Shown here: in pieces, positions 2,648 to 33,651 of the stretch
How the letters are laid out: every line of letters begins with the position of its first letter
How positions within the stretch are numbered: position 1 is the first letter of the stretch
DNA from: Sphingobacteriales bacterium
GTDB taxonomy: Bacteria; Bacteroidota; Bacteroidia; Sphingobacteriales; Sphingobacteriaceae
Length of the DNA: 64,000 nt
Assembly: GCA_025353765.1 (NCBI GenBank)
Contig: JANXOD010000008.1
Location: 372,001-436,000 of the forward strand
Direction of reading: 5' to 3'
Translations under genes and position numbers: made by a program
Notes under the pieces: model-generated
What the model was told of the DNA's origin: nothing
What the model saw: only the letters and a program-made list of their open reading frames with translations
Databases searched by the model: none

Positions 2648-2680
2648 ATTTGTAATTTTAGAATAGATAACAATTAAATA

Positions 2681-3757: not shown

Positions 3758-3842
3758 CTTTATAATTTCGAAAATATTGGCAATTTAAAAATGCATTAAT
3801 TTGAAATTAGGGAAAATAAAAGTAACTCAAAATAAATTAGAG

Positions 3843-4973: not shown

Positions 4974-4989
4974 CTTTATAATATATTAA

Positions 4990-6300
4990 TTAAACCGTTT
5001 TCACATCTTTTGTATCATATTCATCAATATCTGTGATATAACCATTTTGTATTAGAAATTCAAATAACGGTTTTGCCTCTGCGGAGACCGGCATATTATG
5101 AGTAGTGATAATTTGATTATTTTTTTTATTTAAATACGGGTAAGCATACAATTTAACATTTTTACTAAACAAATCACTAATGTAGGCCAATAAACCATCG
5201 GTATAATTCTCTCCGTAATTTTTAGAATTGAAAATATTTTTAAGGTTGGCAATATTAGTAGATATGCCCACATTGTTAGGTTTACAACGTGATAAGTATT
5301 GAGCCAATTTATGGTTTCGGGTAAAGTTTGAAACAATTACATGGTTACCTGTTGCACATAATTCTTCTGCCCGTTTAGCAAAAATTTGCAAATCTTCATT
5401 GATGGGTTCTGTATGGTCATCCAGCAGATTAGTCATTAATACCTCTATCAAAACAATAATATTCTCATCACTAACCTGTTGTGAGCGTTTAAATTGTTCT
5501 ACAGCACGGTTAAATAAATCAAAATTAGGAGTTGATTTTTGTCCGAATTTGGTACGCAAAATCATGACATCCTTTTTGTATAAAATGTCTTTTGATTGCC
5601 TGGCAATACCATCAGCATCAAAAATGGCAGCTCCGGAAAACCCTTTAGCAATAAGATAAAGATTTACTAAACGATCATTCGCATTTTTAAATATTGGCCC
5701 GTTAAGACTCACCAAATCAATTTCCACTGAACCTACAGAAAGATTATCTACCAAAGATTCGATCATTGCCTTTACATCATGATGATAGAAATAGGCTGCA
5801 TAAACTAAATTTACACCTAAAATACCAAGCACATTTTGCTGCAAATTAGAATCGCTGTCGAGTAAACGAACATGGAAAATAATATCATTAGGTTCTCCGC
5901 CAGGAGTTATCTGGAATCGAATTCCAAGCCATCCATGCGGATCATTCGTTTTATTGAAATTAAGTGTAGTAACGGTATCTGCAAAAGCGAAGAAAGTTTT
6001 GCCTTCATATTTGGGGCCGAATAAACGTTCCGTAAGCAGTTCAAACTCATGGTAGAGCATTTTATCCAATCGTGATTTGGTTACATACCTACCAGATTCC
6101 TCTACTCCATAGATAGAATTACTGAAAACCATATCGTAGGCCGACATTGTTTTTGCTATTGTACCAGACGCAGCACCGGCTGTAAAAAAATTACGGGCTA
6201 CTTCCTGCCCTGCTCCTATTTCGGCAAATGTGCCATAAATAGCTTCATCCAAATTAATTTTTAATGCTTTTCTTTTTGTTTCTAAAATTTCCCTGGGCAT
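4990..6300 (-). CDS. Conserved protein of unknown function
   Basis: The 436-residue cytosolic protein starts MPREILETKRKALKINLDEAIYGTFAEIGAGQEVARNFF. I know this start as conserved among Bacteroidota homologs annotated inconsistently, and I cannot name a verified function. It has a Gly/Ala-rich stretch (TAGAASGTIAKTMSAYDMVF, residues about 41-60) and a central part with VVDNLSVGSVEIDLV-like alternating hydrophobics. There is no signal peptide and no membrane helix. It is transcribed ahead of the three PA2928-like paralogs with a 16-nt gap, so it probably heads a four-gene transcript. Confidence 0.55.
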   Translation of the reverse strand: MPREILETKRKALKINLDEAIYGTFAEIGAGQEVARNFFTAGAASGTIAKTMSAYDMVFSNSIYGVEESGRYVTKSRLDKMLYHEFELLTERLFGPKYEGKTFFAFADTVTTLNFNKTNDPHGWLGIRFQITPGGEPNDIIFHVRLLDSDSNLQQNVLGILGVNLVYAAYFYHHDVKAMIESLVDNLSVGSVEIDLVSLNGPIFKNANDRLVNLYLIAKGFSGAAIFDADGIARQSKDILYKKDVMILRTKFGQKSTPNFDLFNRAVEQFKRSQQVSDENIIVLIEVLMTNLLDDHTEPINEDLQIFAKRAEELCATGNHVIVSNFTRNHKLAQYLSRCKPNNVGISTNIANLKNIFNSKNYGENYTDGLLAYISDLFSKNVKLYAYPYLNKKNNQIITTHNMPVSAEAKPLFEFLIQNGYITDIDEYDTKDVKTV

Positions 6301-6344
6301 GCTGTAAAATTACAAACATTTGGCATTGGCAAAGCATGCAAAAT

Positions 6345-6379
6345 AAAAAGGCATCTGGAATATCTCCGAACGCCTTTTA
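6345..6379 (-). terminator. Rho-independent terminator after hsp20
   Basis: AAAAGGC at 6346-6352 pairs with GCCTTTT at 6372-6378. Read on the minus strand the hairpin is followed by TTTTTATTTT. It lies between the stop of the Hsp20 gene and the start of the next minus-strand gene, so it would end hsp20 transcription. Confidence 0.7.
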
Positions 6380-6410
6380 CCAATCAGGAAATAACAAAAT
6401 TATTTAACCC

Positions 6411-6851
6411 TTATCTTACAGAAATTTGCTTAGCCTGCATCTTTGCGTCTTCTTTTTTAGCAATTTTAATTTCAAGTACTCCATCGTTATATTCTGCGTC
6501 TATATGTTCCGGATCAGCAGAATCCGGCAACGTAAATGTTCGCACAAAAGACATATAACTATATTCGCGTTTGTTATACCTTTTATCTTCTTCTCTATTT
6601 TCTTCCTTTTTCTCGACAGAAATAGTCAATAAATTTTTATCCAGGTTTATTTTAAAGTCATCCTTTTTCATTCCGGGAGCCGCTAACTCTATACGATATT
6701 CATTCTCTGTCTCTGCAATATTAACTGCAGGAACACGGGATATCATTCGGTCTGATAAAAATGAATCATTAAACAATGATTCGAAAACATCACTAAATAT
6801 TGGACTTAATGCTGTGTCTCGGTTTCCATTTGTGAATTTTACTAGTGCCAT
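6411..6851 (-). CDS. Hsp20/alpha-crystallin small heat shock protein
   Basis: The 146-residue protein has a short N-terminal arm, an alpha-crystallin domain from about residue 38 to 133 (VNIAETENEYRIELAAPGMK, then LLTISVEKKEE and FTLPDSADPEHIDAEYNDG VLEIKIAK in order) and the C-terminal KQISVR tail with the I-x-V motif that packs between dimers. Small heat shock proteins hold unfolding proteins without ATP. The start is backed by a perfect AGGAGG 8 nt upstream, rare in this phylum. The gene stands alone between a terminator and the divergent thioesterase gene. Confidence 0.94.
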   Translation of the reverse strand: MALVKFTNGNRDTALSPIFSDVFESLFNDSFLSDRMISRVPAVNIAETENEYRIELAAPGMKKDDFKINLDKNLLTISVEKKEENREEDKRYNKREYSYMSFVRTFTLPDSADPEHIDAEYNDGVLEIKIAKKEDAKMQAKQISVR

Positions 6852-20665: not shown

Positions 20666-21057
20666 AATATAAAGCCTTCTTTCTTGTTATTAATGGCCTG
20701 GTTGTATAATAGTAGGTGGCGGTGGGAAATCTACATTATAGAAATAGGTTGTTAAATTATAGTATAGCCTCACCCTTATGCTAATATTATTACTGAACTC
20801 AATCCCCTATCAAATTTATGATACTAGATTTTTAAAGTGCTTATGATAGAGCATACTATTTTCGTTTTATGAAGATAAAGAATTACTCTCTGGAAGCAAT
20901 ATATAAATAAATTCCATATACTGCAGAATAGTTTCTCATATATATTAATAAAATTATTAATTAAAATACTATTGTAACAATCTTGTTCCAAAATATTAAT
21001 ATTGTTTCTATATTTACGGCTACTAAATCAATGAAATTAAACTGAATATAGCTGCCG
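20666..21057. other. AT-rich intergenic region upstream of cassette A
   Basis: No gene of useful length is visible in these 392 bases. The last 90 bases hold the conserved promoter block described separately. The rest is very AT-rich, with no clear terminator after the broken lipoprotein gene. Confidence 0.6.
20971..21017 (+). promoter_or_regulatory. Conserved promoter block of cassette A
   Basis: This stretch is nearly the same as 27874-27920 before cassette B. It holds the palindrome ATTGTAACAAT (20971-20981) and TATATTTAC (21009-21017), which resembles a -7 box. The transcript would start about 30-40 nt before the VKOR-fusion start codon. The palindrome overlaps where a -33 element would lie and could be an operator. 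Confidence 0.6.
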
Positions 21058-22653
21058 ATGAATTTGACTACTGCACTACCTTATCTGAATCCCCTATATA
21101 CTCATGAACCTGTTTCCTTCGCATTATCTCAGTTTTTAAAAAAGCAAGGCATTAAATTAGACCGTGATAGGCTTCAACAGAAACTATCTGAGCACCCTTA
21201 TTATTCAAGCTTGTTAAGCATTAGCGATATTTTGAATGATCTGGGTATAGCACATCAAGTTTACCAAACAGACATAAATACATTAATTAGCGATTTTTCT
21301 AAGCCTTTATTTACTCACCTAACCATACAAGGACAGGAACTTTTCGCAATTATTGAGCAATTTGAAAATGATAAATTTAAAATTATAACAGAAAAGGCAG
21401 AGACCCATTGGTACTCCCATAAAGAATTAGAAACAGTTTGGGGCGGAATCCTGCTTGAATTGGAAAGCGGAGAATCTGTCATCATGCCTAAGCAAAATGA
21501 AACTTATCCTAAAGCTTTAAAATATGGTATTTATGTTTCTATCTTTTCAGCATTGGCATGTTTCATTTACTTAAAAACTGCTGGATTCTCCTTTCAACAA
21601 GTTCTTCTTTTTATTTTTAATTGCGTCGGGATAGCCATTTCATGGATATTGGTTTTACAACATCTCAATAAAAATAATGCCTTAGTTAAACAGCTTTGCC
21701 AAAGTAAAACACAGGAAGGTTGCAGTTCGGTTTTAAGCAGTAAGGCATCTCAAATTACCCCTTGGCTAAGTATGGCAGAAGCCGGATTAATATACTTTAT
21801 AGGTGCTGCTTTAACTATGCTATTCTTTAGTAAGCCTATATTCTATTTATACCTGGCTTTACTCGCTCCCTTGTATTCCTTGTATGCCATTTATATCCAG
21901 GCTTTTGTTTTAAAAGAATGGTGTCGCCTGTGTATGGGAATTCATGTTTTGGTATTAGCCAGCTTTATTTCTGTATTAGTATTTTATGGCTCATTATTTT
22001 CCACGATACAATTACCTGAATTAGCACAATTTGCTGTTTTTCTAATTCCTTTAGTAATTTGGTTAACTGCTAATCCTATAATTAAGAAACTAAAGGACGC
22101 AGAGCATTCAAAGATTAAATACAGCAGACTAAAATCTAATCCTGAATTATTTAAAATATTAGCAACTAAGCAGTCCAAAATTGATATCCCCACTGAATTG
22201 AAAGTATTTCAATTCGGCAATCTGGAAGCAATACATGAATTAACTTTTATTTCCAACCCATTTTGCGGGCCCTGTGCTAAGGCTCATCAGATTATTGATG
22301 AATGGTTGCAAAACAACAACCTAGATTTTAAGATTAGTATCATTTTTTCACATACTAACCATGAAGAAGATAGAAACAAACAATTTGTGGAATGGATATC
22401 CGGGATTAGAAATAAGGAGGAACTCATATCTGCATTGCATAATTGGTTCAATTTAGATAATAAAGATATAACCAAATGGGCAGAAAGATTACACTTAACT
22501 AAAGCTGTTTTAAAATATGATGCCGAACATTTAGACCAGTGGATGAATATGACTGACATCAATGCGACTCCTACATTTTTTATTAATGGTTATCGTTTGC
22601 CAAATGAATATCGTTTAGAGGATATTAAATATTTAATATTAGAAATTAACTAA
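21058..22653 (+). CDS. C39-like / VKOR / thioredoxin fusion membrane protein, copy A
   Basis: The 531 residues fall into three parts. Residues 1-140 resemble a C39 bacteriocin-processing peptidase (HPYYSSLLSISDILNDLGI at 46-64, then HLTIQGQELFAIIEQF) but have no Cys, and the usual G-H-F is replaced by E-L-F, so it cannot cut. Residues 157-345 are a multi-helix VKOR domain with C214, C222 (CSSVL) and the EWCRLCMG pair C289/C292. Residues 385-531 are a thioredoxin-like domain with NPFCGPCAKAH (C403, C406) and ATPTFFING carrying the cis-Pro. VKOR oxidises thiols using quinone and passes electrons from the thioredoxin. Inference: the C39-like part holds a GG leader while the rest makes disulfides in the peptide encoded next. 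Confidence 0.9.
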   Translation: MNLTTALPYLNPLYTHEPVSFALSQFLKKQGIKLDRDRLQQKLSEHPYYSSLLSISDILNDLGIAHQVYQTDINTLISDFSKPLFTHLTIQGQELFAIIEQFENDKFKIITEKAETHWYSHKELETVWGGILLELESGESVIMPKQNETYPKALKYGIYVSIFSALACFIYLKTAGFSFQQVLLFIFNCVGIAISWILVLQHLNKNNALVKQLCQSKTQEGCSSVLSSKASQITPWLSMAEAGLIYFIGAALTMLFFSKPIFYLYLALLAPLYSLYAIYIQAFVLKEWCRLCMGIHVLVLASFISVLVFYGSLFSTIQLPELAQFAVFLIPLVIWLTANPIIKKLKDAEHSKIKYSRLKSNPELFKILATKQSKIDIPTELKVFQFGNLEAIHELTFISNPFCGPCAKAHQIIDEWLQNNNLDFKISIIFSHTNHEEDRNKQFVEWISGIRNKEELISALHNWFNLDNKDITKWAERLHLTKAVLKYDAEHLDQWMNMTDINATPTFFINGYRLPNEYRLEDIKYLILEIN

Positions 22654-22756
22654 GTGTTTAAACTTAGTCAATTTGAAGATAGGGGTATATAAGAACTAAA
22701 AAATAAATAAGACTATGCAATTCTCCTTTGGAAGATTAGGATAAGATTTAAAACTG

Positions 22757-22882
22757 GAAATGGCCACCCAAGGGGTAGCAGAATCAAGTAACCGCCTACT
22801 AAAATGGCGATAAATTAATTATTTAGATGAAATATAAATTTAAAGTTTTTGCTGTTTTTTGATAGATAAAAACAGTATTAAT
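22757..22882 (+). promoter_or_regulatory. Conserved two-hairpin leader before peptide A
   Basis: This leader is shared with 29657-29785. Hairpin 1 is CGCC (22793-22796), loop TACTAAAAT, GGCG (22806-22809); in copy B the stem is TACC/GGTA around the same TACTAAAA loop, so two base pairs differ by compensating changes. Hairpin 2 is CTGTTTTT (22852-22859) with AAAAACAG (22868-22875), ending 7 nt before the ATG. ACCCAAGGGG further up is also conserved. It may control translation or RNA stability of the peptide gene. Confidence 0.6.
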
Positions 22883-23137
22883 ATGGAAAATAAGCCGAAT
22901 ATTAAATTTAGCGGTATTAAAAAAATGCTAACCAGAGAACAGATGAAAGGTGTAACAGGTGGGTATGGTGGTTACAGTGGTTCCGGATCTTGTTACCAAT
23001 GCACCTGTGGTTCAATGACTAGTTGTTGGTATTTTTCAGGTGGTAATCCCAATTTTGGATGTGCAAGAGTATATACTGGATCATGTAGTACATTTAGCTC
23101 TATGCAGATTCCATGTTCAGCAGGATGTCATACTTAA
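22883..23137 (+). CDS. GG-leader Cys-rich secreted peptide A
   Basis: I use the ATG at 22883 (an in-frame TTG lies at 22859) because the paralog at 29786 starts at the matching ATG. The 84 residues comprise a leader of 27 (KFSGIKKMLTREQMKGVTGG) ending in a double Gly, and a core of 57 with eight Cys (37, 40, 42, 48, 60, 68, 78, 82) set in Gly, Ser and Thr. That allows four disulfides. The leader form is that of precursors cut by C39 ABC exporters. The core matches no bacteriocin I know. The redox gene upstream suggests that it is oxidatively folded outside the cytosol. Confidence 0.82.
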   Translation: MENKPNIKFSGIKKMLTREQMKGVTGGYGGYSGSGSCYQCTCGSMTSCWYFSGGNPNFGCARVYTGSCSTFSSMQIPCSAGCHT

Positions 23138-23384
23138 ATAAACTTGCAAATCAGTATCAATTATTTAGATTATAAATCAATTAACGAGGTCATTATTTTA
23201 TCGCAATTAAGAAAGTTTTGATTTTTAAGATATCTATGATTTAATGCCTTATAGTCTTCATTTAACTCCAAGTTACTATTGCCATGTGTGATATTAATCA
23301 TTTAGATATGAAATATAATAACAAATTCTATTTAAATATCAAAAGAATCACAACTAGCAATAGTAACTTTAACTCCTTGATTAT

Positions 23385-24338
23385 ATGTTAAATAATTTTA
23401 TTTTAATAACCTTATTTGTTACAACTTTATTTTTAATTTCCTCGTGTAATCCAGATAAGAAGCGGGCTAATCATTCTAAAACAGTTCCTACATCTTTTAA
23501 TAAACAAGTAAAATTAAAAAATTCTCATTCTCTTTTAAATATAGCCTTATTTGATACAAGTAGAAGGTTTAATAATTTATCAGATTTATGTAAATATAAA
23601 ATGAATGTGGAAACAACTTTTTATAACTACAAGGTTAAAGACAGGAATACATCAAAACAATTAACAGACCATACTATAGACTCCTTAGAAAATCATAATC
23701 AGGAAATGTTCCTGCTGTCTCTATATACTCATTTATCTAATTTACCAAAAAATATTTCCAACTTCCGGCTCTTAAGTGATATTCAATATTCGCATACTAT
23801 AAGCTATGAAAAGAAAATTGAACTGTTTAATTCTTATCCAGAGTCCTTACAAAAAAGCGCCATAGGTAAACAAGTTTTATCCGCATTAAATCTTTATAAT
23901 CATAATAAAGGACTTGACGTACTTAGTTTTAAACCAGTTAAAATATTAAATAAAGATCTTAAGCCCAACCTATTTTCTAGTTTATTTCAAAATAGATATA
24001 ATCACTATCTAATTATATTTAGTGCTACCTGGTGCTCACCATGTAGGTATCAAGAATTAATTTTAGAAAAAGAACTGCCTAAGATTGACATTACAAAAAT
24101 AAAAATTATCAGTATCTATATCGATAAGAATAAAACTAAGTGGTTAGATAAATATAAAAAAGGGGGATTTCTTTGGGATACCTATCTAGCTGAAAATGAA
24201 TTTAATGCTGATTTACTTCAAGTTTTAAATATTACTTCTATTCCGAGAGTATTTCTAATTAATGCTAGCAAGCAAATAGTTGTTGAAAGTAGTAGTGTTA
24301 ATGAAGCTCTTGATTATGTTAGAGGTTCAAAAAAATGA
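23385..24338 (+). CDS. TlpA/thioredoxin-like lipoprotein
   Basis: The 317-residue protein has a lipoprotein signal ending at Cys21 (LFLISSCNPDK), a poorly conserved helical middle of about 170 residues, and a C-terminal thioredoxin-like domain (about 190-317) with ATWCSPC (C217, C220) and a cis-Pro in NITSIPRVFLIN. It would act as a membrane-tethered thiol oxidoreductase in the periplasm. It lies 247 nt after peptide A. Its place in the cassette matches the TPR-thioredoxin gene of copy B, though the two are not close relatives outside the CxxC domain. Confidence 0.85.
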   Translation: MLNNFILITLFVTTLFLISSCNPDKKRANHSKTVPTSFNKQVKLKNSHSLLNIALFDTSRRFNNLSDLCKYKMNVETTFYNYKVKDRNTSKQLTDHTIDSLENHNQEMFLLSLYTHLSNLPKNISNFRLLSDIQYSHTISYEKKIELFNSYPESLQKSAIGKQVLSALNLYNHNKGLDVLSFKPVKILNKDLKPNLFSSLFQNRYNHYLIIFSATWCSPCRYQELILEKELPKIDITKIKIISIYIDKNKTKWLDKYKKGGFLWDTYLAENEFNADLLQVLNITSIPRVFLINASKQIVVESSSVNEALDYVRGSKK

Positions 24339-24556
24339 CAAAGCTCTTTTAAATACATATAAAACTAATAACTGGCGAAAATAGAATAAAATGGTTCACT
24401 GATATATGTTTTATTAATAGTTCCAATAAGTTCAAACATACGGTCCCGTTTAAAACATTAAAGTTATATTCCAAGAGCTGAATGAGCAAAAACTATAATA
24501 ATTACAAAAGCTAATAGTTTATTATATAGCTAAATATTACCTAAATTATATTCCCT

Positions 24557-25447
24557 GTGAATCGCATCGTAATTATATTTTCATTCCTTTTGTTATCATC
24601 CTGCACTAATTTGGGGCAAACACCTAAGTCATCTGAACAAGAGGAAGTGCTAATAAATAAAACAAATAATAAAACTAACCTGACAAACTATCTTGACGAA
24701 AAAAAATGGAATGCTCTTTTTCCAAAAAGATATGGAATTCTTAAAAAGGATTCGATAAATAACAATCCTGATTTTTATTCTTTTAAAGCCTTTGTTACTG
24801 CCGCTAAATGTTTCCCTTCTTTTCTTTCAGACGGAGATAAGAACAGTCAAAAAAGAGAACTGGCTGCTTTTCTTGCTAATATTGCACAAGAAACCAGTGG
24901 TGGTTGGCCTACCGCTCCTGATGGATATTTTAAATGGGGATTGTATTTTTTAGAAGAACAGTCCGAAGGCCATGGAATCACGTACGCCGATACCACTAAA
25001 AAGAACTATCCTCCAGTTCTTGGGAAGTATTATTTTGGAAGAGGCCCAAAGCAACTAAGCTGGAATTATAATTATGGGCAGTTTAGCCAATCATGGTATG
25101 GCAGTAAAGATACTTTATTAAACCATCCCGAATGGTTATCCAAAGATCCAGTTTTATCCTTTGCTTCGGCTTTATGGTTTTGGATGTATCCTCAAAAACC
25201 TAAGCCTTCATGCCATGATATTATGGTAGAAAAATGGAAACCAACAGAGGATGATATTTTAAAAGGGAGATTAACTGGCTTTGGAGCTACTGTAAATGTA
25301 ATTAATGGCGGAGTGGAATGTGGAAATGGAAAAGAGTTGGAAAAAACAGCATACCGTTATCAATATTACCAGTATTTCTGTAATTATTTCCATGTATCAC
25401 CGGGCAGTAATATTAGTTGTAGTAAGCAAAGAGCATTTGGCCAATAA
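24557..25447 (+). CDS. GH19 chitinase-like lipoprotein
   Basis: Starting at a GTG, the 296-residue protein has a lipoprotein signal ending at Cys16 (LLLSSCTNLG). The GH19 domain spans about residues 70-290: AQETSGGW holds the first catalytic Glu (E112), FLEEQS the likely second, and GRGPKQLSWNYNYG (161-174) is the family signature. GH19 enzymes cut chitin, and some act on peptidoglycan. It is found only in cassette A. Being surface lipidated, it could be an antifungal or wall-active weapon or serve nutrition. Confidence 0.9.
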   Translation: MNRIVIIFSFLLLSSCTNLGQTPKSSEQEEVLINKTNNKTNLTNYLDEKKWNALFPKRYGILKKDSINNNPDFYSFKAFVTAAKCFPSFLSDGDKNSQKRELAAFLANIAQETSGGWPTAPDGYFKWGLYFLEEQSEGHGITYADTTKKNYPPVLGKYYFGRGPKQLSWNYNYGQFSQSWYGSKDTLLNHPEWLSKDPVLSFASALWFWMYPQKPKPSCHDIMVEKWKPTEDDILKGRLTGFGATVNVINGGVECGNGKELEKTAYRYQYYQYFCNYFHVSPGSNISCSKQRAFGQ

Positions 25448-25500
25448 TGAAAGGTTTTTTTACAACTAAATCAAAAAGACTTTGAAATATATTCTAGTAA

Positions 25501-26724
25501 TTGAAGAATAAAATAAAAATCATTCAGACCTTATATATCCACCCAGGGGAGGATGATCCTATAAAAAATAGTATGGGATTTTTAGCTTCCGAGGTTAATT
25601 GGATGAGCTGGGCATTAAGCTGTTTGCAATTAAAAAAATTATATGGTGAAGTGGAGCTGTACACTAATACTACAGGCAAAGAAGTATTAATTGACCGCTT
25701 AAATTTACCTTATACAAAAGTTCATACGGTTTTAGATGAAATTAAATATGAAAAACAATTGTGGGCTTTTCCTAAAGTTTATACATATAGCTTACAACAA
25801 CAACCTTTCATTCACATAGATGGAGATGTATTTATGTGGGAAAAAATGAATCATAAGCTCTTAAATGCTGACTTAATTGCTCAAAATATAGAAACAGATA
25901 ATGGATTCTATACTAAAATTATGGCTCGTTTGATTGAAAGTGATATCTGGTTTAATGAATCTATAAAACAACAAATTAAATCTAAAGCCGAATATGCAGC
26001 CTACAATGCAGGAATTTTCGGAGGTAACGACATTGCATTTTTTAAAGAATATACAGAGCAGGCATTCAAATTAATTACTAAAAACAGAGATCGATTCAAT
26101 GAAATGGATTTGGGCAAGTTCAATATGATTTATGAACAATATCTGTTCTACTGCCTTGCCTTACAGTTTGATAAACCAGTAGAATGTTATTTTCCAGAAT
26201 CAGTAATTGATATCTCTTATAAAGGCTTCGCTAATTTCCTGGAGGTACCTTATAAAACCAAGTTTATTCATATGTTGGGGGATTATAAGAGAATTGAAGA
26301 TGTATGTGTTATGCTGGCCAAAAGATTACGGCAGGATTACCCAGAGTACTATTACCGCATTATTGCCGAATGTAAAAAAACAAGTACTTCCCAATTGTTT
26401 GTCTATTATGGTGCATATAATTTTAATGCACAACTGGAAAATCCTATTTGGAAAATGATCTCTTCTGTTATGTCGTCTCTTTATGAAATGGAGTTACAGA
26501 ATATAAAAGAGAGGACTACTATTGGAAGAATGGTTTATGTACAGAATGGAGGCATACTTGGCAGACCATCAGGAAGCAATGAATCTGAATTGAAATTTTT
26601 ACAAAAAGAGAGCTCTCAACAAATCATCAAATCCTTAAAAAAGGGGTTAACAATACGAGAAGTTAGTAAAGTTGTTAATGTTTCTACAAAAACAGTGATG
26701 AAAGTGAAGGCATTAATAGCTTAA
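25501..26724 (+). CDS. DUF6734-like protein A fused to a serine-recombinase tail (chimera)
   Basis: Starting at a TTG, residues 1 to about 290 closely follow the full-length paralog at 32224, including IHIDGDVFMWEKMNHKLLNA with a D-G-D motif like the metal site of glycosyltransferases. After RIIAECKK the two diverge abruptly. From about residue 305 the sequence is the end of a Pin-type serine recombinase (MSSLYEMELQNIKERTTIGR, GGILGRPSGSNES, then the HTH TIREVSKVVNVSTKTVMKV). The paralog's C-terminal 185 residues are lost. An illegitimate joining event must have produced it, so full function is doubtful, though the frame is open. Confidence 0.82.
   Translation: MKNKIKIIQTLYIHPGEDDPIKNSMGFLASEVNWMSWALSCLQLKKLYGEVELYTNTTGKEVLIDRLNLPYTKVHTVLDEIKYEKQLWAFPKVYTYSLQQQPFIHIDGDVFMWEKMNHKLLNADLIAQNIETDNGFYTKIMARLIESDIWFNESIKQQIKSKAEYAAYNAGIFGGNDIAFFKEYTEQAFKLITKNRDRFNEMDLGKFNMIYEQYLFYCLALQFDKPVECYFPESVIDISYKGFANFLEVPYKTKFIHMLGDYKRIEDVCVMLAKRLRQDYPEYYYRIIAECKKTSTSQLFVYYGAYNFNAQLENPIWKMISSVMSSLYEMELQNIKERTTIGRMVYVQNGGILGRPSGSNESELKFLQKESSQQIIKSLKKGLTIREVSKVVNVSTKTVMKVKALIA
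26375..26724 (+). mobile_element. 3' fragment of a serine recombinase gene
   Basis: The reading frame from about 26375 encodes only the last part of a resolvase/invertase: the long E-helix (ELQNIKERTTIGRMV), the GRPSGSNES linker and a C-terminal HTH. The catalytic serine domain is absent. With the XRE gene that follows, it marks the remains of a mobile element which has joined the DUF6734-like gene. Confidence 0.75.
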
Positions 26725-26801
26725 TGGTATAGAAAGCAATATTAGGGGTTCTTAGTGCTTACTTTATAATATTTACAAGAGTAGCTTTAAAGTTCTTCTA
26801 T

Positions 26802-27032
26802 TTATACTACGGATATTATTATTTCTTCTAAAGGTACATCTAATCCTAAACTGATCTGATACAAGTAATATATTGAAGGATTGATATTTCCAGATTCGAG
26901 CCTTTGGATAGATTGTTGGTCTTTGCCTATGGAATGGGCTAATTGTTGTTGGCTCATTTTCTTTAGGATTCGGATCTCACGAATTCTTGTCCCCATTTTT
27001 TTTAAGAATGCCTCCTTTTCCATTAGAGACAT
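26802..27032 (-). CDS. XRE-family helix-turn-helix regulator
   Basis: I choose the ATG at 27032 (MSLMEKEAFLKKMG); the frame can start as far up as 27065 or as late as 27023. The HTH is MSQQQLAHSIGKDQQSIQRL followed by ESGNINPSIYYLYQISLGLD, a standard HTH_3 domain, with no added domain. It points against the cassette genes and sits between the recombinase remnant and a small lipoprotein gene. Its targets are unknown. Confidence 0.85.
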   Translation of the reverse strand: MSLMEKEAFLKKMGTRIREIRILKKMSQQQLAHSIGKDQQSIQRLESGNINPSIYYLYQISLGLDVPLEEIIISVV

Positions 27033-27130
27033 AAAGCAAGGGTAAACAATCGAAAATAAACACAACAGATTAGTTGTATTAATTTAAAAAGATTTACATT
27101 AGCAGCAGCTTAAACCATAAAACTTATAAA

Positions 27131-27391
27131 ATGAAATTTTTAACTGCAACATGTATTACTTTGTTATTCGCCTCCTGTTCAAATCCCAAATCAGACGCTA
27201 AAAAAGTTTGCGATTGTTATTCAAGCATCGATTGGACTTCAGAAAAGCATGAGTATCAAAAATTTATAGGTTTAGAGGCTGACATGGCCAAAAAATACAA
27301 AGATAAACCAAGTGAATATTTAGAGTATCGGACTGAAGCAGATACTTGTATGAAAAGAGCTCTGGCAAAAATGGGGAAGGACAAACAATAA
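27131..27391 (+). CDS. Small lipoprotein of unknown function
   Basis: The 86-residue protein starts MKFLTATCITLLFASCSNPK, a lipoprotein signal with the Cys at 16. The mature part has three more Cys (VCDCYSS and DTCMKR) and charged helices. I do not recognise the family, although Cys-bearing short lipoproteins of this kind are common in Bacteroidota. It is divergent from the XRE gene. Confidence 0.7.
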   Translation: MKFLTATCITLLFASCSNPKSDAKKVCDCYSSIDWTSEKHEYQKFIGLEADMAKKYKDKPSEYLEYRTEADTCMKRALAKMGKDKQ

Positions 27392-27727
27392 GATAGCTTT
27401 TTATATAAATCAGCCTATATTCTTTACATTTTATCTTAAAGTTTAATGTGGGTGAAGGTAAGCTTCAGTGTACTGATCAATTCAAAATACTACCTATATG
27501 CTTAGAAAATCAAATTTTGCAGAATCATATTAAAGGTCATTAACAATACGCTAAAAAGTAATTTCTTAAATTTTTTTAATAAATTTTTTTAATAATTAGC
27601 TATGCGCAATATTGTTGTTGTTTATTTATTGAAATTTTTTTTTGAGATCTTCCTATTAAAGCATCTTGTATATACATATTTCATTATATATTATCTCTAT
27701 TGATTTTGTTAAAACTTCATAAAAATT

Positions 27728-27755
27728 GCATCTGGGCTCTACTAAGATGCTTTTT
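27728..27755 (+). terminator. Candidate Rho-independent terminator
   Basis: GCATCT (27728-27733) pairs with AGATGC (27745-27750) and is followed by TTTTT. It lies about 340 nt after the small lipoprotein gene and before the cassette B promoter, so it would insulate the two. Confidence 0.55.
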
Positions 27756-27873
27756 CAGAGAAAAATACCAGTGCATGGTATCCTCGCTATGATAGATGAA
27801 TAATTCCTATAAAATTCTTGCAAATAGCAAATAAAATAATATAAAAATTAATAATTTATTTACTAAAAACATT

Positions 27874-27920
27874 ATTGTAACAATCTTGTTTCAAAGTATG
27901 AATATTGTTCCTATATTTAC
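27874..27920 (+). promoter_or_regulatory. Conserved promoter block of cassette B
   Basis: It matches the block at 20971-21017: ATTGTAACAAT palindrome at 27874-27884 and TATATTTAC at 27912-27920, with nearly all bases between them kept. Conservation of this noncoding stretch in both copies suggests the two cassettes still answer to the same regulator. Confidence 0.6.
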
Positions 27921-27961
27921 ACCTAGTAAAACAATAAAATTAAACTAAATATTACCTGCCA

Positions 27962-28522
27962 ATGAATTTCATTACTGCCCTACCTTACCTGAATCCCCTA
28001 TATACTCATGAACCTGTTTCTTTCGCATTATCTCAGTTTTTAAAAAAGCAAGGCATTAAATTAGACAATGATAGGCTTCAACAGAAACTGTCTGAACATC
28101 CTTATTATTCAAGCTTGTTAAGTATTAGTGATGTTTTAAATGATTTAGGTATAGCACATCAAGTTTACCAAACGGATATAAATACATTAATTAATGATCT
28201 TTCTAAACCTTTATTCACTCATCTAAAAATACAAGGGGAAGACATTTTCGCAATTATTGAGCGCTTTGAAAATGATAAATTTAAAATTATAACAGAGAAA
28301 GCAGAAACCCATTGGTATTCAGAGGAAGAATTGGAAACAGTTTGGGGCGGAATCCTGCTTGAATTGGAAAGCGGAGAATCTGTCATCATGCCTAAGCAAG
28401 ATGAAACTTATCCTAAAGCTTTAAAATATGGTATTTGTTTCTATCTTTTCTGCATTCGCATATTTTATTTACTTAAAAACCACTGTTTTTTCCTCACAAC
28501 AGGCTCTCCTTTTTATCCTTAA
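27962..28522 (+). CDS. C39-like domain part of VKOR fusion copy B (5' half of a split gene)
   Basis: Residues 1 to about 157 closely match the N-terminal C39-like domain of copy A, again without a catalytic Cys or His. At 28435 two bases present in copy A (AT of ATTTATGTT) are missing, after which the frame reads unrelated residues (CFYLFCIRIFYLL) and stops at 28522. The break lies just before the first membrane helix, so the fragment is a whole soluble domain plus a short hydrophobic tail. It may still fold. Its partner half starts inside it at 28428. Confidence 0.75.
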   Translation: MNFITALPYLNPLYTHEPVSFALSQFLKKQGIKLDNDRLQQKLSEHPYYSSLLSISDVLNDLGIAHQVYQTDINTLINDLSKPLFTHLKIQGEDIFAIIERFENDKFKIITEKAETHWYSEEELETVWGGILLELESGESVIMPKQDETYPKALKYGICFYLFCIRIFYLLKNHCFFLTTGSPFYP

Positions 28523-29555
28523 TTGTGCCGGAATAGTCATTTCATGGATACTGGTTTTACAACATTTCAATAAAAACAATGTCTTAGTTAAACAGCTTTG
28601 CCAAAGCAAAACACAAGAAGGTTGCAGTTCGGTTTTAAGCAGTAAAGCTTCTCAAATCACTCCCTGGTTAAGCATGGCAGAAGCCGGATTAATATACTTT
28701 ACAGGATCTGCTTTATCAACCATCGTATTCAAAACTCCTATACTCTCTATTTATTTTGTTTTGTTAGCACCGCTTTATTCAATATATGCCATTTATCTTC
28801 AGGCTTTTGTGTTAAAGGAATGGTGCCGCTTATGTATGGGGATTCATGCTTTAGTATTGAGTTGTTTCATTTCTGTATTGGTGTTTTATAGCTCATTATT
28901 TTCGAGAATACAATTACCTGAATTAGCACAATTTGCTGTTTTTTTACTCCCAGCATTAATCTGGTTAACCGTTAGTCCTATAATGAAGAAACTGAAAGAT
29001 ACAGGGCAGTTGAAGATTAAATACAGCAAATTAAAATCTAATCCCGAACTATTTAAAGTTTTACTAACTAAGCAGCCGAAAATTAATATTCCTATCGAAT
29101 TAAAAACATTTCAATTAGGCAATCTGGAAGCAGTACATGAATTAACCTTTGTTTCCAACCCATTTTGTGGGCCCTGTGCTAAGGCCCATCAGGTTATTGA
29201 TGAATGGCTGCAAAACAACAACCTAGATTTTAAGATTGTTATCATTTTTTCACATTCCGACCATGAAGAAAGCAAAAACAAACAATTTGTGGAATGGATC
29301 TCCGGAATTACAGACAACGGGAAGCTTAAATCTTCATTGCATCACTGGTTTAAATTAGATAATAAAGATCTAAGCAGTTGGGCAGAAAGATTAAACTTAA
29401 CTAAAACAGCTTTAAAATATGATTCTGAACATTTAGACCAATGGATGAATATGGCTGAGGTACATGCTACACCCTCATTTTTTATTAATGGTTATAAACT
29501 GCCAAATGAATATCGCTTAGAAGATATTAAATATTTAATACCAGAAATTGACTAA
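28428..29555 (+). CDS. VKOR-thioredoxin part of fusion copy B (3' half of a split gene)
   Basis: The frame opens with an ATG at 28428, created in phase by the 2-nt deletion, and encodes the membrane VKOR domain and the thioredoxin domain. All redox Cys seen in copy A are kept: LCQSKTQEGCSSVL, EWCRLCMGIH and NPFCGPCAKAH, plus the cis-Pro in HATPSFFING. The overlap with the upstream half is 95 nt. Re-initiation at 28428 could yield a working VKOR-thioredoxin protein separate from the C39-like domain; otherwise this is a pseudogene in its early stage. Confidence 0.78.
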   Translation: MVFVSIFSAFAYFIYLKTTVFSSQQALLFILNCAGIVISWILVLQHFNKNNVLVKQLCQSKTQEGCSSVLSSKASQITPWLSMAEAGLIYFTGSALSTIVFKTPILSIYFVLLAPLYSIYAIYLQAFVLKEWCRLCMGIHALVLSCFISVLVFYSSLFSRIQLPELAQFAVFLLPALIWLTVSPIMKKLKDTGQLKIKYSKLKSNPELFKVLLTKQPKINIPIELKTFQLGNLEAVHELTFVSNPFCGPCAKAHQVIDEWLQNNNLDFKIVIIFSHSDHEESKNKQFVEWISGITDNGKLKSSLHHWFKLDNKDLSSWAERLNLTKTALKYDSEHLDQWMNMAEVHATPSFFINGYKLPNEYRLEDIKYLIPEID

Positions 29556-29656
29556 GTGCTTAAGCCCCGAGTACTTTAAATATGTGGGAATATATTAATC
29601 TAACTTAAAAAAATGCAGAAATATCCATATTAGAGATCTAAAAGGAAGCTCGAAAT

Positions 29657-29785
29657 AAAAACGGCTAACCCAAGGGGGATACCCGTTCTAAGTAATTACC
29701 CTACTAAAACGGTAAACAATTAATTAAAATGAATTACAAACTTAAAGTTTTTGCTGTTTTTTGATGAATAAAAGCAGATAATAAA
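29657..29785 (+). promoter_or_regulatory. Conserved two-hairpin leader before peptide B
   Basis: It corresponds to the leader before peptide A. Hairpin 1 is TTACC (29696-29700), loop CTACTAAAAC, GGTAA (29711-29715). Hairpin 2 is CTGTTTTT (29754-29761) with AAAAGCAG (29770-29777), one G-U pair, ending 8 nt before the ATG. ACCCAAGGGG is also present. The distance from hairpin 1 to the start codon is 70 nt here and 73 nt in copy A. Confidence 0.6.
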
Positions 29786-29980
29786 ATGGAAAAGAAATCA
29801 AATATGAAATTTAGTGGTATTAAAAAAATGCTAACCAAAGACCAACTAAAAAGTGTAGTAGGTGGCTATGGAGGAGGGGGCACTGCAACTATCGGTTGTG
29901 TAAATAATTGTGCACCATATTCTGCAGGATGCTATCAAGTAGCTTGTGGTGGACAACAGACGTATTGGATGCGTTATTAG
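29786..29980 (+). CDS. GG-leader Cys-containing secreted peptide B
   Basis: The 64-residue precursor has a 27-residue leader (KFSGIKKMLTKDQLKSVVGG) nearly equal to that of peptide A, followed by YGG in both. The 37-residue core differs almost completely: four Cys (38, 42, 49, 54) and a C-terminal aromatic tail YWMRY. A conserved leader with a variable core is typical of peptides that share one export and maturation route but have different targets. Two disulfides are possible. It lies 230 nt after the split VKOR fusion. Confidence 0.8.
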   Translation: MEKKSNMKFSGIKKMLTKDQLKSVVGGYGGGGTATIGCVNNCAPYSAGCYQVACGGQQTYWMRY

Positions 29981-30083
29981 TAAATAATAAAATGTTCATG
30001 TACAATACAGAAGGTATTCGAATCAAATCGAAAATCTTTTGTATTGTATTAATGGTACAAATCATAATATTAAAAACACACTA

Positions 30084-31613
30084 ATGAGAATTATCTGCTC
30101 TACCTTGTTATTATTTTTTATACAAACTTCATATTATGCTAGTGGACAAGTAAAGGATAGTAAAAATACTATTGTTGCAGATCTCAAAAAATTAAAATCT
30201 GCAATTGAATTAAATCCTGAAAATCAAAAGGCTCATGAAAATTATATAAATGAATCCAATATAAGAGATAGCAGTATTAATAGACAATATGTATTATGGA
30301 TGAAGAAATATCCTAAATCATCTATAGTCTATTTTAAGGCAGCTGAAGTTTATCGTCAACAAGGAAAATATGATAAAGCTAGAGAGTGCTTGCTTAAAGC
30401 TACTTCCATTAAATCCAATTTTGATGAAGCATGGTATCTCCTGGCCGATGATGCAACGTATTCTGGCGATACAATAAAATCACAGCAATACCTTCAAAAC
30501 GCAGTAATTTCTAATCCTAAAAATGCCAAATATTCCATGTATTATGCCTTGTCATTTGAACATTATGATATAGGAAAATGCGATTCTTTATTACTTGATA
30601 TAACTAGAAAATATCCTTCAAATGAATATGGAGCACAGTCTTTAAACTATTTGGCTTATAAAACAACTATAGTAAATGAAAAGATGGTTTATTATGATCA
30701 ACTATACAAAAATTATATAAACATAAGGTCAGATGCTAAAGAAGACGGAATGATTTCCTACTACGATATACTATTAACTCGTATACCGGAAAAAGCATTG
30801 TCGCTCGCAATAGATATGTTTCTAAATATTACCACTGTAAACAGGCATATATGGTCTGAAAGGATAAAAATTGCAAAAGAATTTATAGGTATAAGAGGTT
30901 TTTTAGCTAATTCCCAACCCCTGCAAGCCCAATTGGCTTTAAATAAAATTAGTATAAAAAAATACCTAAATCTTAACATAAAAGAAACGCTTGCATTACT
31001 AAAAGCAGAAGTTGCGGATGCAAACAATCAAACACAAACGGCATATGATAGTCTTACATATTTATACAGTAGATACCCTAGTGATAATTTGCATGCGGTA
31101 ATTTTTAATTATGCAAAGAAACTTGGTTTAGATAATAAACAAATCAATAAGGATATACAACAATTACGGGATTCTACTTCTCAGCCAGCTACATACTTTT
31201 CTTTACCATGTTATGCAACACCAGAAAAGGCATCGCTTAGCGATTATAAAGGGAAAGTAGTATTACTTACATATTGGTTTCCGGGATGCCTACCATGCCG
31301 TGAAGAGTTTAAATATTTAGAATCAGTTATTAAGAAATTCAATAGTAATCAGATAGCTTATTTGGCTATTAATATAAATAACTATCAAGAACAATATATA
31401 GACTCCTTTTTAAAATCGAATGATTATAGTTTTATTCCTTTATGTGATGACCCTGCTTGGAAAAAAGGAAATTTATCAGTAATCGGAGTACCTGCTAATT
31501 ATCTTATTGATCAAAAAGGGCGCATTATATTTTCAAATTTTCAAATTAATGCACAAAATAAGCGGATGCTTGAACTTATGATAAGTGAATTACTAAATGT
31601 TGAAACATATTGA
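30084..31613 (+). CDS. Secreted TPR / thioredoxin-like protein
   Basis: I start at the ATG at 30084, where MRIICSTLLLFFIQTSYYAS is a signal peptide; the frame is open further up but from a weak TTG. The 509 residues hold TPR-like helices (about 65-140, KYDKARECLLKATSIKSN) and a C-terminal TlpA-type domain (about 375-509) with FPGCLPCREEF (C402, C405). The cis-Pro is in VIGVPANYLID. It should act outside the cytosol as a thiol reductase or oxidase bound to a partner through its TPRs. It overlaps the next frame only if that frame starts early. Confidence 0.83.
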   Translation: MRIICSTLLLFFIQTSYYASGQVKDSKNTIVADLKKLKSAIELNPENQKAHENYINESNIRDSSINRQYVLWMKKYPKSSIVYFKAAEVYRQQGKYDKARECLLKATSIKSNFDEAWYLLADDATYSGDTIKSQQYLQNAVISNPKNAKYSMYYALSFEHYDIGKCDSLLLDITRKYPSNEYGAQSLNYLAYKTTIVNEKMVYYDQLYKNYINIRSDAKEDGMISYYDILLTRIPEKALSLAIDMFLNITTVNRHIWSERIKIAKEFIGIRGFLANSQPLQAQLALNKISIKKYLNLNIKETLALLKAEVADANNQTQTAYDSLTYLYSRYPSDNLHAVIFNYAKKLGLDNKQINKDIQQLRDSTSQPATYFSLPCYATPEKASLSDYKGKVVLLTYWFPGCLPCREEFKYLESVIKKFNSNQIAYLAININNYQEQYIDSFLKSNDYSFIPLCDDPAWKKGNLSVIGVPANYLIDQKGRIIFSNFQINAQNKRMLELMISELLNVETY

Positions 31614-31687
31614 AAAATCATGATAGTAGAGGGGTTTTTCAAAGTCTGCTATTTTGCTATTACTTTCATTTTAAGAATCTGAAAAAT

Positions 31688-32143
31688 ATGAAATACTTCT
31701 TATCACTCATATTTATTATTACACTTAATCTGCATGTATCTTCGCAGATACTGGAACCTATTAAATGGAAATTTAATGTAACCCAAATAGATAATACAAC
31801 TTTTGAGGTTCATTTAAAAGCTACTATAAAATCTGGGTGGCATGTCTATTCTCAGATACAACCTAAAAATGCTATTGCTGAGCCTCTACATATTAATTTC
31901 ATTAAAAATAACTTAATAATATTAGAAGGTAAACCTAAAGAAGTTGGTAAACTGTCAAAGGTTTTTGATAAAACTTTAGGTATTGGGGCTTATCAATATT
32001 CAGACAATTTAGATATTGTTCAGACAATTAAACTGAAAAAGAGAGGAAAAACTATTCTAAAAGGTTTTGTTACTTTTCAAACATGCAATGATCAGCAATG
32101 CCTCCCATCTCAAGATGAATCCTTTCAAATTTTATTAAACTAA
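31688..32143 (+). CDS. DsbD-alpha-like secreted protein
   Basis: I start at the ATG at 31688, giving the signal peptide MKYFLSLIFIITLNLHVSS; an upstream frame start at 31610 would bury it. The 151 residues resemble the N-terminal domain of DsbD: SGWHVYSQ near residue 60 and the redox site FQTCNDQQCLPSQDE near the end, with two Cys four residues apart. In DsbD this domain passes electrons to periplasmic partners. Here it stands alone without the membrane part, next to a thioredoxin, so it may act as a shuttle or isomerase helper. Confidence 0.82.
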   Translation: MKYFLSLIFIITLNLHVSSQILEPIKWKFNVTQIDNTTFEVHLKATIKSGWHVYSQIQPKNAIAEPLHINFIKNNLIILEGKPKEVGKLSKVFDKTLGIGAYQYSDNLDIVQTIKLKKRGKTILKGFVTFQTCNDQQCLPSQDESFQILLN

Positions 32144-32223
32144 TGAAATAAGAGGTATTTGGAGCGGTAGTTAATTTAAAAGAATCTCAAAAGTTGACAA
32201 AGAGTTAAACTTCAATTTAATAA

Positions 32224-33651
32224 GTGAGCAAAATAAAAATCATACAAACCTTGTACATCCACCCAGAGCAAGGTGATCCCATTAAAAATAGTATGGGATT
32301 TTTAGCCCCAGAAGTTAATTGGATGAGCTGGGCTCTTAGTTGTTTGCAACTAAAGAAACTATATGGCGAAGTAGAACTTTATACTAATGCTCTTGGAAAA
32401 GAAGTATTAATTGATCGCTTAAATCTACCCTATACAAAAGTTCATATGGTTTTAGGTGAGATTAAGTATGAAAAGCAATTATGGGCTTTCCCTAAGGTTT
32501 ATACATACAGTTTACAGGAGCAGCCTTTCATTCACATAGATGGTGATGTATTTATGTGGGAAAAAATGAATCATAAGCTCTTAAATGCTGATTTAATTGC
32601 TCAAAACATGGAAACAGACAATGGATTCTATGATAAAATCATGACCCGTTTGATTGAAAGCAATACTTGGTTCAATGAGTCTATTCAGCATCATATACAA
32701 AGTAAATCAAGCTATGCAGCTTATAATGCAGGAATTTTTGGAGGTCATGATATTGCATTTTTTAAAGAATATACCAACCAGGCCTTTGAGTTAATTGATA
32801 AAAACCGAGATTGTTTTGCTGACATAGATTTAGATAAATTTAATATGATTTATGAGCAATATCTTTTTTATTGCCTTTCAAAAGAGCGTAACAAATCTGT
32901 AGAATGTTATTTCCCTGAATCTGTAGGAGAAATATCTACCTATGAAGGCTTTGCCAACTTCCTAGAAGTTCCTTATCAAACCAAGTTTATTCATATGTTG
33001 GGAGATTATAAAAGGGTTGAAGAAGTATGTGTTATGCTGGCTAAGCGATTAAGGCAAGATTATCCTGAATACTATTATCGAATCATTGATGAATGTAAAA
33101 AAGCAGGCATTTCACCCTGGTTTAACTGTTATAGTCTGTATGATATTAATTTAAAAAAGTTCAACCTACGATCGGAGAATCTTGTTTTGAACCAGGAGGC
33201 TATATCCCAGAAATCCAGTTTTAACTATAACTGGAAAGATCTATATGAAGTGGAGAAAAACCAACATATACAAATGGAGCAAGCTTTTAGCAGCTTCAGT
33301 GAATTATTTCCTGCTGTATTTGTTAAAGAAAAACAAATTAAAATCTATGTTGAAGAAACTATTCAGCCTGATGAAGATGAAATCAAAGCTATTTGCCAAG
33401 CCCCTGATTGTTATAAATTAGGGGAAAGGCAATTCCCCTGTGACGACCTTGATCTGGTACTGCTGGAATTACTTACTGCTCCAAAAACATTTGAAGACTT
33501 GCTCCATTCTCTTAAAGACTATTTTGATGAGGAAGAAATAAATTCAGACCCAACTACTTTTTATGAACTCATATCTCTTCGCTTAAAGACTGGATGCAGT
33601 AATAATATGTATCGAATTGTTAAATCATCTATAGACTTTTCAATTAATTAA
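32224..33651 (+). CDS. DUF6734-like protein B, full length
   Basis: Starting at GTG, this 475-residue protein is the intact form of the gene at 25501. Residues 1-290 carry FIHIDGDVFMWEKMNHK, whose D-G-D within a hydrophobic strand is like the nucleotide-sugar and metal site of GT-A glycosyltransferases. Residues 350-475 form a separate part: EKQIKIYVEETIQPDEDEI, then DLDLVLLELLTAPKTFEDLL and FYELISLRLKTGCSNNMYRI, a winged-helix-like arrangement reminiscent of PqqD-type peptide-binding domains. I infer it may modify the GG peptide by recognising its leader; neither point is proven. DUF6734 is from memory. Confidence 0.68.
   Translation: MSKIKIIQTLYIHPEQGDPIKNSMGFLAPEVNWMSWALSCLQLKKLYGEVELYTNALGKEVLIDRLNLPYTKVHMVLGEIKYEKQLWAFPKVYTYSLQEQPFIHIDGDVFMWEKMNHKLLNADLIAQNMETDNGFYDKIMTRLIESNTWFNESIQHHIQSKSSYAAYNAGIFGGHDIAFFKEYTNQAFELIDKNRDCFADIDLDKFNMIYEQYLFYCLSKERNKSVECYFPESVGEISTYEGFANFLEVPYQTKFIHMLGDYKRVEEVCVMLAKRLRQDYPEYYYRIIDECKKAGISPWFNCYSLYDINLKKFNLRSENLVLNQEAISQKSSFNYNWKDLYEVEKNQHIQMEQAFSSFSELFPAVFVKEKQIKIYVEETIQPDEDEIKAICQAPDCYKLGERQFPCDDLDLVLLELLTAPKTFEDLLHSLKDYFDEEEINSDPTTFYELISLRLKTGCSNNMYRIVKSSIDFSIN

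Follow-up and report, generated by a model that had tools for sequence, protein, structure and literature searches.

The 64,000-nucleotide stretch of DNA analysed here (the window; positions 372,001 to 436,000 of contig JANXOD010000008.1) comes from the genome of a Sphingobacteriales bacterium (Bacteroidota; 2.83 Mb in 44 contigs), and carries two paralogous cassettes with the same gene order, at 21058-26724 and 27962-33651. Each encodes a membrane protein in which a C39-like domain, a VKOR domain and a DsbA/thioredoxin-like domain are joined (the fusion), a Gly-Gly (GG)-leader peptide with a Cys-rich core, and a protein of the DUF6734 family. We propose, with a probability of about 0.5, that these genes make up a modular pathway for the maturation of Cys-rich GG-leader peptides that are exported and probably bacteriocin-like. 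A preliminary description of the window had already pointed to the duplicated cassettes as a candidate system for disulfide-rich peptides. The present analysis adds a predicted glycosyltransferase function for DUF6734, a predicted cytoplasmic location for the redox face of the fusion, and the observation that both window cassettes are partly broken.

The most distinctive component of the system is the fusion. Profile comparison of its C39-like domain with the C39 domains of 48 exporters gave a probability of 98.5%, and its predicted fold matches 6mpz, a PDB entry with a bound leader. The preliminary description had guessed that this domain is non-catalytic, and the alignment bears this out: among 45 fusions (a set that counts two genomes twice, L016/L122 and L017/L123) the catalytic Cys column never contains Cys and is occupied by Asn in 34, and the catalytic His column never contains His, whereas both residues are kept in 48 of 48 exporters. 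A Cys lies within 5 columns of the catalytic position in 2 of the 45, a His likewise in 2, and the catalytic Asp is kept in 24. The domain also bears an HPxYPSL-type motif in 33 of the 45 fusions and in none of the 48 exporters. Judged by its residues, it is a non-catalytic version of the fold and no peptidase. The redox parts of the protein are fully conserved, with all six redox Cys present in 45/45 fusions; four of these, a loop pair and a CxxC, lie in a four-helix membrane domain, in agreement with membership of the VKOR family, and the last domain gave fold matches to DsbA, DsbC and ScsC structures. In the cassette 1 protein Pfam recognised VKOR (E 2e-14), Peptidase_C39 (E 7e-8) and, slightly below the cut-off, Thioredoxin_4 (E 2e-4). 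Structures of VKOR were retrieved by the sequence search only at E 0.6 or worse, and none was among the best 50 matches listed by the fold search.

Matches to the fusion were found in 102 of 301 genomes of the family and in 44 of 395 genomes of the phylum, counts that take in fragments and some weak matches (e.g. G050, G058 and G175, with E above 1e-4). From the 102 genomes we collected 32 loci, one per genome, hand-picked down the match list blind to the neighbouring genes and hence a non-random sample. The preliminary description had staked its proposal on the fusion and the peptides occurring together in other genomes, and they do so at 25 of the 32 loci, where a GG peptide with at least 2 core Cys was detected by a leader model; L142, read by eye, provides a 26th. 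In 23 of the 25 cases no more than 300 bases separate the fusion from its nearest peptide, and a C39 exporter is present at 27 of the 32 loci. The even Cys counts that had been anticipated were likewise recovered, as all 40 distinct cores with at least 2 Cys at these loci are even-numbered (2, 4, 6, 8, 12 or 16 Cys), and all 40 are encoded on the strand of the fusion. Across all loci scanned there were 71 distinct cores, of which 64 have at least 2 Cys and a single one of these is odd.

The leader model behind these counts was first built from peptides encoded next to DUF6734 and then retrained with the matches obtained at all loci. At E <=1 it matched 75 short open reading frames (ORFs) of the examined loci and none of the same ORFs when reversed, and in the 64 kb window it matched only the two cassette peptides. 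The leaders are hydrophobic at positions -4 (68/70), -7 (59/70) and -12 (66/70), counts that are partly circular because the leaders had been selected by the model itself. Alignments of related cores suggest how Cys might be lost: relative to the cassette 1 core, the third and sixth of 8 Cys are unpartnered in the L168 core, and the third and sixth of the six Cys of L009 and L137 are both absent from the cassette 2 core. Loss by twos is what disulfides would predict, for which these two short gapped alignments offer weak evidence. Searches for a known precursor family gave NCBIfam and Pfam matches that all fell below cut-off; the best of 8 scanned peptides reached 19.0 bits against the cut-off of 25 of the rSAM-modified RiPP precursor family TIGR04149, which the window peptides did not match at E 0.1. 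A lanthipeptide or graspetide identity was also considered and set aside, as the 10 cassette proteins scanned gave no such Pfam match.

Comparison of the two window cassettes points to the modularity of the system. They share two blocks of DNA, 20938-22968 with 27841-29871 (83% identity) and 25510-26379 with 32230-33102 (82%). The former starts upstream of the fusion gene and ends, within the peptide gene, 5 bases beyond the GG codons (a distance counted by hand), and identity returns at the start of DUF6734. Thus, leader and enzymes are conserved, while the core and the genes downstream of it differ, and the natural reading of this break is an exchange of cargo at the GG site. The TlpA-like, GH19 and DsbD_N proteins, being encoded in the exchanged part, may be cargo-specific helpers or immunity proteins rather than core enzymes. 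The order of genes, the GG leaders and the Cys-rich cores given in the preliminary description stand, but neither cassette is intact: the cassette 2 fusion gene has a 2-base deletion relative to cassette 1, after about 28435, which splits it into two ORFs and may be a sequencing error, and the cassette 1 DUF6734 protein keeps about 290 N-terminal residues and has lost the C-terminal domain of its relatives, a different tail taking its place. The CxxC proteins reported for each cassette are there, and correspond to a TlpA-like lipoprotein (cassette 1) and a TPR/TlpA-like protein (cassette 2), but they are optional, since a third cassette on another contig of this genome (L009, 7301-11095) lacks them and consists only of the fusion, a GG peptide with 6 core Cys and DUF6734. 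This minimal cassette looks to be the only complete one of the three. No C39 exporter is encoded in the window. Two occur in other parts of the genome, at L010, on a contig of 10 kb, and at L011, where a HlyD-like protein (identified by eye) accompanies the exporter. As both lie outside the cassettes, export must be served in trans in this genome.

Taken together, these features suggest the following scheme. The leader would tether the precursor to the dead C39-like domain of the fusion. The DsbA-like domain would then oxidise the core Cys in pairs and would itself be re-oxidised by the VKOR domain, which would pass the electrons to the membrane quinone; oxidation by DsbA-type domains and re-oxidation through quinone are the established chemistry of these two families. 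A glycosyltransferase (DUF6734 here, GT25-like or GT2-like proteins elsewhere) could optionally add a sugar to the precursor, and DUF6734 may locate its substrate through a PqqD-like domain. Finally, the C39 ABC exporter would cleave after the GG and export the core. We infer the bacteriocin-like role, with the antibacterial activity that it implies, from the leader, the exporter and the variable cores. In its full form, the proposal is that a cytoplasm-facing VKOR of inverted topology with a dead leader-binding domain oxidises GG precursors prior to export, that cargoes are exchanged at the GG site, and that three glycosyltransferase families plug into the pathway; we advance this version tentatively, at somewhat less than even odds. 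Bacterial disulfide formation is usually excluded from the cytoplasm, and we know of no disulfide route for the GG-leader peptides of Gram-negative bacteria, whose exporters may bypass the periplasm. The gene set suggests a dedicated answer to this problem, in which the leader is brought to the oxidase through the exporter's own binding fold. If true, the scheme would set apart a large class of peptides in Bacteroidota, given the fusion's presence in about a third of the family genomes, would give DUF6734 a function, and would furnish a tool for the intracellular production of multi-disulfide, possibly glycosylated peptides.

The sidedness of the fusion is where the strongest competing explanation arises. 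Known VKOR-DsbA fusions face the periplasm, and the system could be the same with a fusion that also does so, in which case fusion and TlpA-like proteins would oxidise or isomerise the peptide there, and the C39-like domain would bind the exported peptide or the exporter instead of a leader on the cytoplasmic side. Hydropathy and a predicted model of modest quality indicate six helices in the fusion (one extra, four of VKOR and one leading to the thioredoxin-like domain), and this number puts the C39-like and thioredoxin-like domains on the same side of the membrane, with the redox Cys. According to the positive-inside rule, the side of a membrane protein rich in Lys and Arg (K+R) is cytoplasmic. 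The K+R density of the fusions is 0.117 on the redox side versus 0.036 on the other, and the redox side is the richer one in 51 of 53, whereas the values for 14 VKORs without a C39 domain are 0.058 versus 0.186, the redox side being higher in only 2 of the 14. The two groups differ with a Mann-Whitney p of 6e-8, a value that ignores relatedness. Of 30 VKOR loci, 6 (L198-L201, L203 and L209) yielded no sequence to the pattern used, and the comparison was made without the fusions L211 and L212, the latter being the window's own. An alignment-based count also placed more K/R on the redox side in 45/45 fusions, the compared loops being unequal in length. In view of the charge bias and the rule, we predict that the redox side and the C39-like domain are cytoplasmic. 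The cytoplasm is where the leader is still attached and where the exporter's C39 domain and DUF6734, which has no signal peptide by eye, are predicted to work, and a redox face there would fit with this. A periplasmic fusion is favoured by TlpA-like genes whose products have signal peptides (assigned by eye); they occur at 17 of the 32 loci and also in the two window cassettes. Such secreted partners argue for extracytoplasmic work and constitute the main tension in our proposal. The stretch preceding the first helix points the same way, as it carries no net positive charge (-0.42), unlike the loops on its side. On balance, we consider a periplasmic fusion unlikely, though by no means negligible. 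The 2 exceptions among the 14 VKORs without a C39 domain, L202 and L213, are short proteins that show a reversed charge bias like that of the fusions; their neighbours are uninformative by eye.

Besides these two points, several others weigh against the maturation scheme. The model of the fusion is modest, with a mean predicted local distance difference test (pLDDT) score of 71.3 and a predicted template modelling (pTM) score of 0.45 from 8 sequences; one of the three fusion genes of this genome is frameshifted; the odd-numbered core, with 7 Cys, comes from a locus with both fusion and DUF6734 (L020); and 7 of the 32 fusion loci lack a peptide by the model, or 6 once L142 is read by eye. These peptide-less loci, several of which have an exporter adjoining the fusion, could be taken to mean that the fusion serves as a thiol enzyme of general or exporter-linked function, for instance one that maintains the exporter or a periplasmic protein in its oxidised state, and that it lies near Cys-rich peptides through shared regulation or clustering. 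The invariably shared strand, the short distances, the even Cys counts and the patchy presence of the fusion (102/301 genomes) speak against such a general role, which we hold to be the least probable of the alternatives. Scarcely more probable is that maturation proceeds as we propose and the products are signals or surface structural peptides, not toxins. In its support, 8 of the 32 loci have LytTR regulators and 6 have histidine kinases, an immunity gene was not identified, and small GG peptides with one Cys are encoded on the strand opposite to the fusion at 5 loci; the highly variable cores and the exchange of cargo after the GG fit antagonism better. The single-Cys peptides (L156 7116-7298, L160 9696-9881, L163 6674-6928, L164 9796-9978 and L165 14883-15092) adjoin LytTR or histidine kinase genes at most of these loci and are themselves possible signal peptides.

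The DUF6734 protein is predicted to be a glycosyltransferase of the GT-A fold. The model (mean pLDDT 84.9, pTM 0.83) matches GT-A enzymes over residues 1-293, with glycogenin at Z 12.6 and a root-mean-square deviation of 3.8 over 212 residues at 14% identity; the match to alpha-1,3-galactosyltransferase has a Foldseek E of 9e-7, with TM-scores of merely 0.28 and 0.41. Residues invariant in 28 DUF6734 sequences include D106 and D108, which form a DxD motif, as well as N168, E211, Q212, H257, K263 and others. The C-terminal domain matched the PqqD profile with a probability of 87.8% in local and 50.2% in global mode, with controls at 0.1-0.2%; the query profile was built from 32 of 44 proteins after divergent ends, duplicates and a truncated copy were dropped. 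There is thus moderate support for a PqqD-like leader-recognition domain at the level of profiles; the Pfam PqqD model matched none of the 28 members, and no PqqD was found in this genome.

DUF6734 is far rarer than the fusion, with matches in 16 of the 395 phylum genomes and 15 of the 301 family genomes, four genomes belonging to both sets. A fusion match is present in 12 of the 16 (Fisher p 1e-9) and in 12 of the 15 (p 2e-4), p values that are too strong because of shared ancestry. Among 28 DUF6734 loci (L109-L136, of which L119 lies on a 5.9 kb contig), 22 are in fusion-bearing genomes, and a GG peptide with at least 4 Cys occurs at 11 of them; such a peptide was found at none of the 6 loci in genomes without a fusion match. 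A strict dependence, in which a Cys-rich peptide would occur at a DUF6734 locus only if the same locus also had a fusion, was considered and proved false: L109, L110, L113, L117, L121, L124 and L125 have a Cys-rich peptide without a nearby full-length fusion. Their genomes have a fusion at another place. In Flavobacterium (L012, L014 and L034) DUF6734 adjoins GG-leader proteins with few or no Cys. These include, at L012 11662-13014 and L034 11663-13045, proteins of 450-460 residues that have a GG leader and begin with a Gly/Ser-rich stretch; C39 exporters come next, and the proteins are perhaps large GG-leader toxins modified by DUF6734. At L129, the gene stands beside LanB-like and LanC-like genes (named by eye). 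With such low-Cys and Lan-like neighbours, DUF6734 looks like a disulfide-independent modifier of GG-leader products.

Parts of this assembly have precedents. C39 ABC exporters (PCAT) and the C39-like domains of HlyB have the same C39 fold, and in HlyB-type exporters the dead C39 domain binds substrate; the dead domain here sits on a redox enzyme and not on a transporter. Fusions of VKOR to DsbA/thioredoxin are known, for instance in Synechococcus, and the structure of one, PDB 4nv2, was named in the sequence search. In them, too, the four-Cys core of VKOR is attached to a DsbA-like domain; the fusion described here differs in its additional N-terminal C39-like domain, extra helix, opposite charge bias and linkage to GG peptides. 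An archaeal VKOR of Aeropyrum (Hibender, 2017) reportedly acts in two compartments and, to go by the title, offers a precedent for a non-usual VKOR topology; we know of no link between it and peptide maturation. A clostridial VKOR-DsbA/thioredoxin fusion figures in the relevant part of PMC12453122.

Close analogues at the level of pathways are the glycocins. The sections of PMC12457901 that deal with sublancin, glycocin F and the thg and org clusters describe a GG-type leader with cleavage by a C39 exporter, several disulfides, a glycosyltransferase and thioredoxin-like proteins. The GG-type leader and the C39 exporter are found here too, the latter at most fusion loci and in trans in this genome. 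Those sections describe no VKOR or C39-like fusion (PMC12457901); the glycosyltransferase here is DUF6734 and the hosts are Gram-negative. Where a glycosyltransferase is present, the system would therefore resemble a glycocin pathway of the type sketched there (PMC12457901). We have not filed it under glycocins, because glycosylation here is a prediction and 23 of the 32 fusion loci have no glycosyltransferase by the tests used. The bacteriocin TMcin has its disulfide formed by an oxidoreductase dedicated to this task, TmcD, as the pertinent passages of PMC13252029 have it; these depict a membrane-embedded precursor, an enzyme of the DsbA family, an S2P leader protease and a separate ABC transporter, in all of which TMcin differs from the present system. 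Among the papers listed by searches of one open-access library (one search being swamped by human VKOR papers), none dealt with the fusion together with GG peptides, and DUF6734 was named in no paper of the literature searched. Term searches found neither VKOR nor vitamin K in PMC8939145, PMC10352776, PMC13252029 and PMC10885120, and none of Bacteroidetes, peptidase, C39 and fusion in PMC4555120.

Features of the two cassettes in the window. Lipoprotein and signal-peptide assignments were made by eye.
Feature	Position	Strand	Basis
Cassette 1 fusion, intact, 531 aa: C39-like, VKOR and DsbA/thioredoxin-like domains	21058..22653	+	Pfam, model, fold search
Cassette 1 GG-leader peptide: 27-aa leader, 8-Cys core	22883..23137	+	
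TlpA-like thioredoxin lipoprotein, exchanged part of cassette 1	23385..24338	+	Thioredoxin_8 E 5e-9; lipobox by eye
GH19 (chitinase class I) family lipoprotein, exchanged part of cassette 1	24557..25447	+	E 7e-70; lipobox by eye
Cassette 1 DUF6734, predicted glycosyltransferase, C-terminal domain replaced by a different tail from about residue 300	25501..26724	+	DUF6734 E 4e-104; alignment
Cassette 2 fusion, first half (C39-like), early stop through frameshift	27962..28522	+	
Cassette 2 fusion, second half (VKOR and thioredoxin-like), different frame	28428..29555	+	
Cassette 2 GG-leader peptide: 27-aa leader, 4-Cys core	29786..29980	+	
TPR/TlpA-like protein, signal peptide by eye, exchanged part of cassette 2	30084..31613	+	AhpC-TSA E 1e-10, TPR
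DsbD N-terminal-domain-like protein, exchanged part of cassette 2	31688..32143	+	DsbD_N E 6e-8
Cassette 2 DUF6734, predicted glycosyltransferase, own C-terminal domain present	32224..33651	+	Pfam, model, fold searches

The partners of the fusion vary across the 32 loci. The TlpA-like genes, which lie within 650 bases of the fusion at 12 of their 17 loci, share a BLAST cluster with the cassette 1 lipoprotein. GT25-like genes are present at 5 of the loci and GT2-like genes at 4 (9/32 together), family assignments that rest on a Pfam check of 4 proteins and on BLAST clustering for the others. DUF6734 is at 0/32, an absence that is partly by choice, because the loci with both fusion and DUF6734 (G000, G417, G485 and G602) were fetched separately. 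Fusion genes elsewhere are often interrupted by stops or split, e.g. at G620:C8 118804-120409 and G419:C1 4308121-4309676, which suggests frequent decay of such clusters.

Some minor features of this genome deserve mention. The unusual tail that ends the DUF6734 protein of cassette 1 (26404-26724) weakly matched the C-terminus of the serine recombinase family PRK13413 (E 5e-6, 26 bits where the cut-off is 272), and no second copy of it was found in the genome. The exporter at L010 belongs to a separate, graspetide-like cluster (2308-6584, by eye), of which it is the own C39 exporter. A search of the window with Rfam returned a single match, to SRP RNA. The intergenic stretch between fusion and peptide genes (22760-22880 and 29660-29785) is conserved across the window cassettes and partly in the third cassette, and contains, directly 5' of the peptide start, an inverted repeat with U-runs (22852-22875, by eye); it could be an attenuator or another regulatory element.

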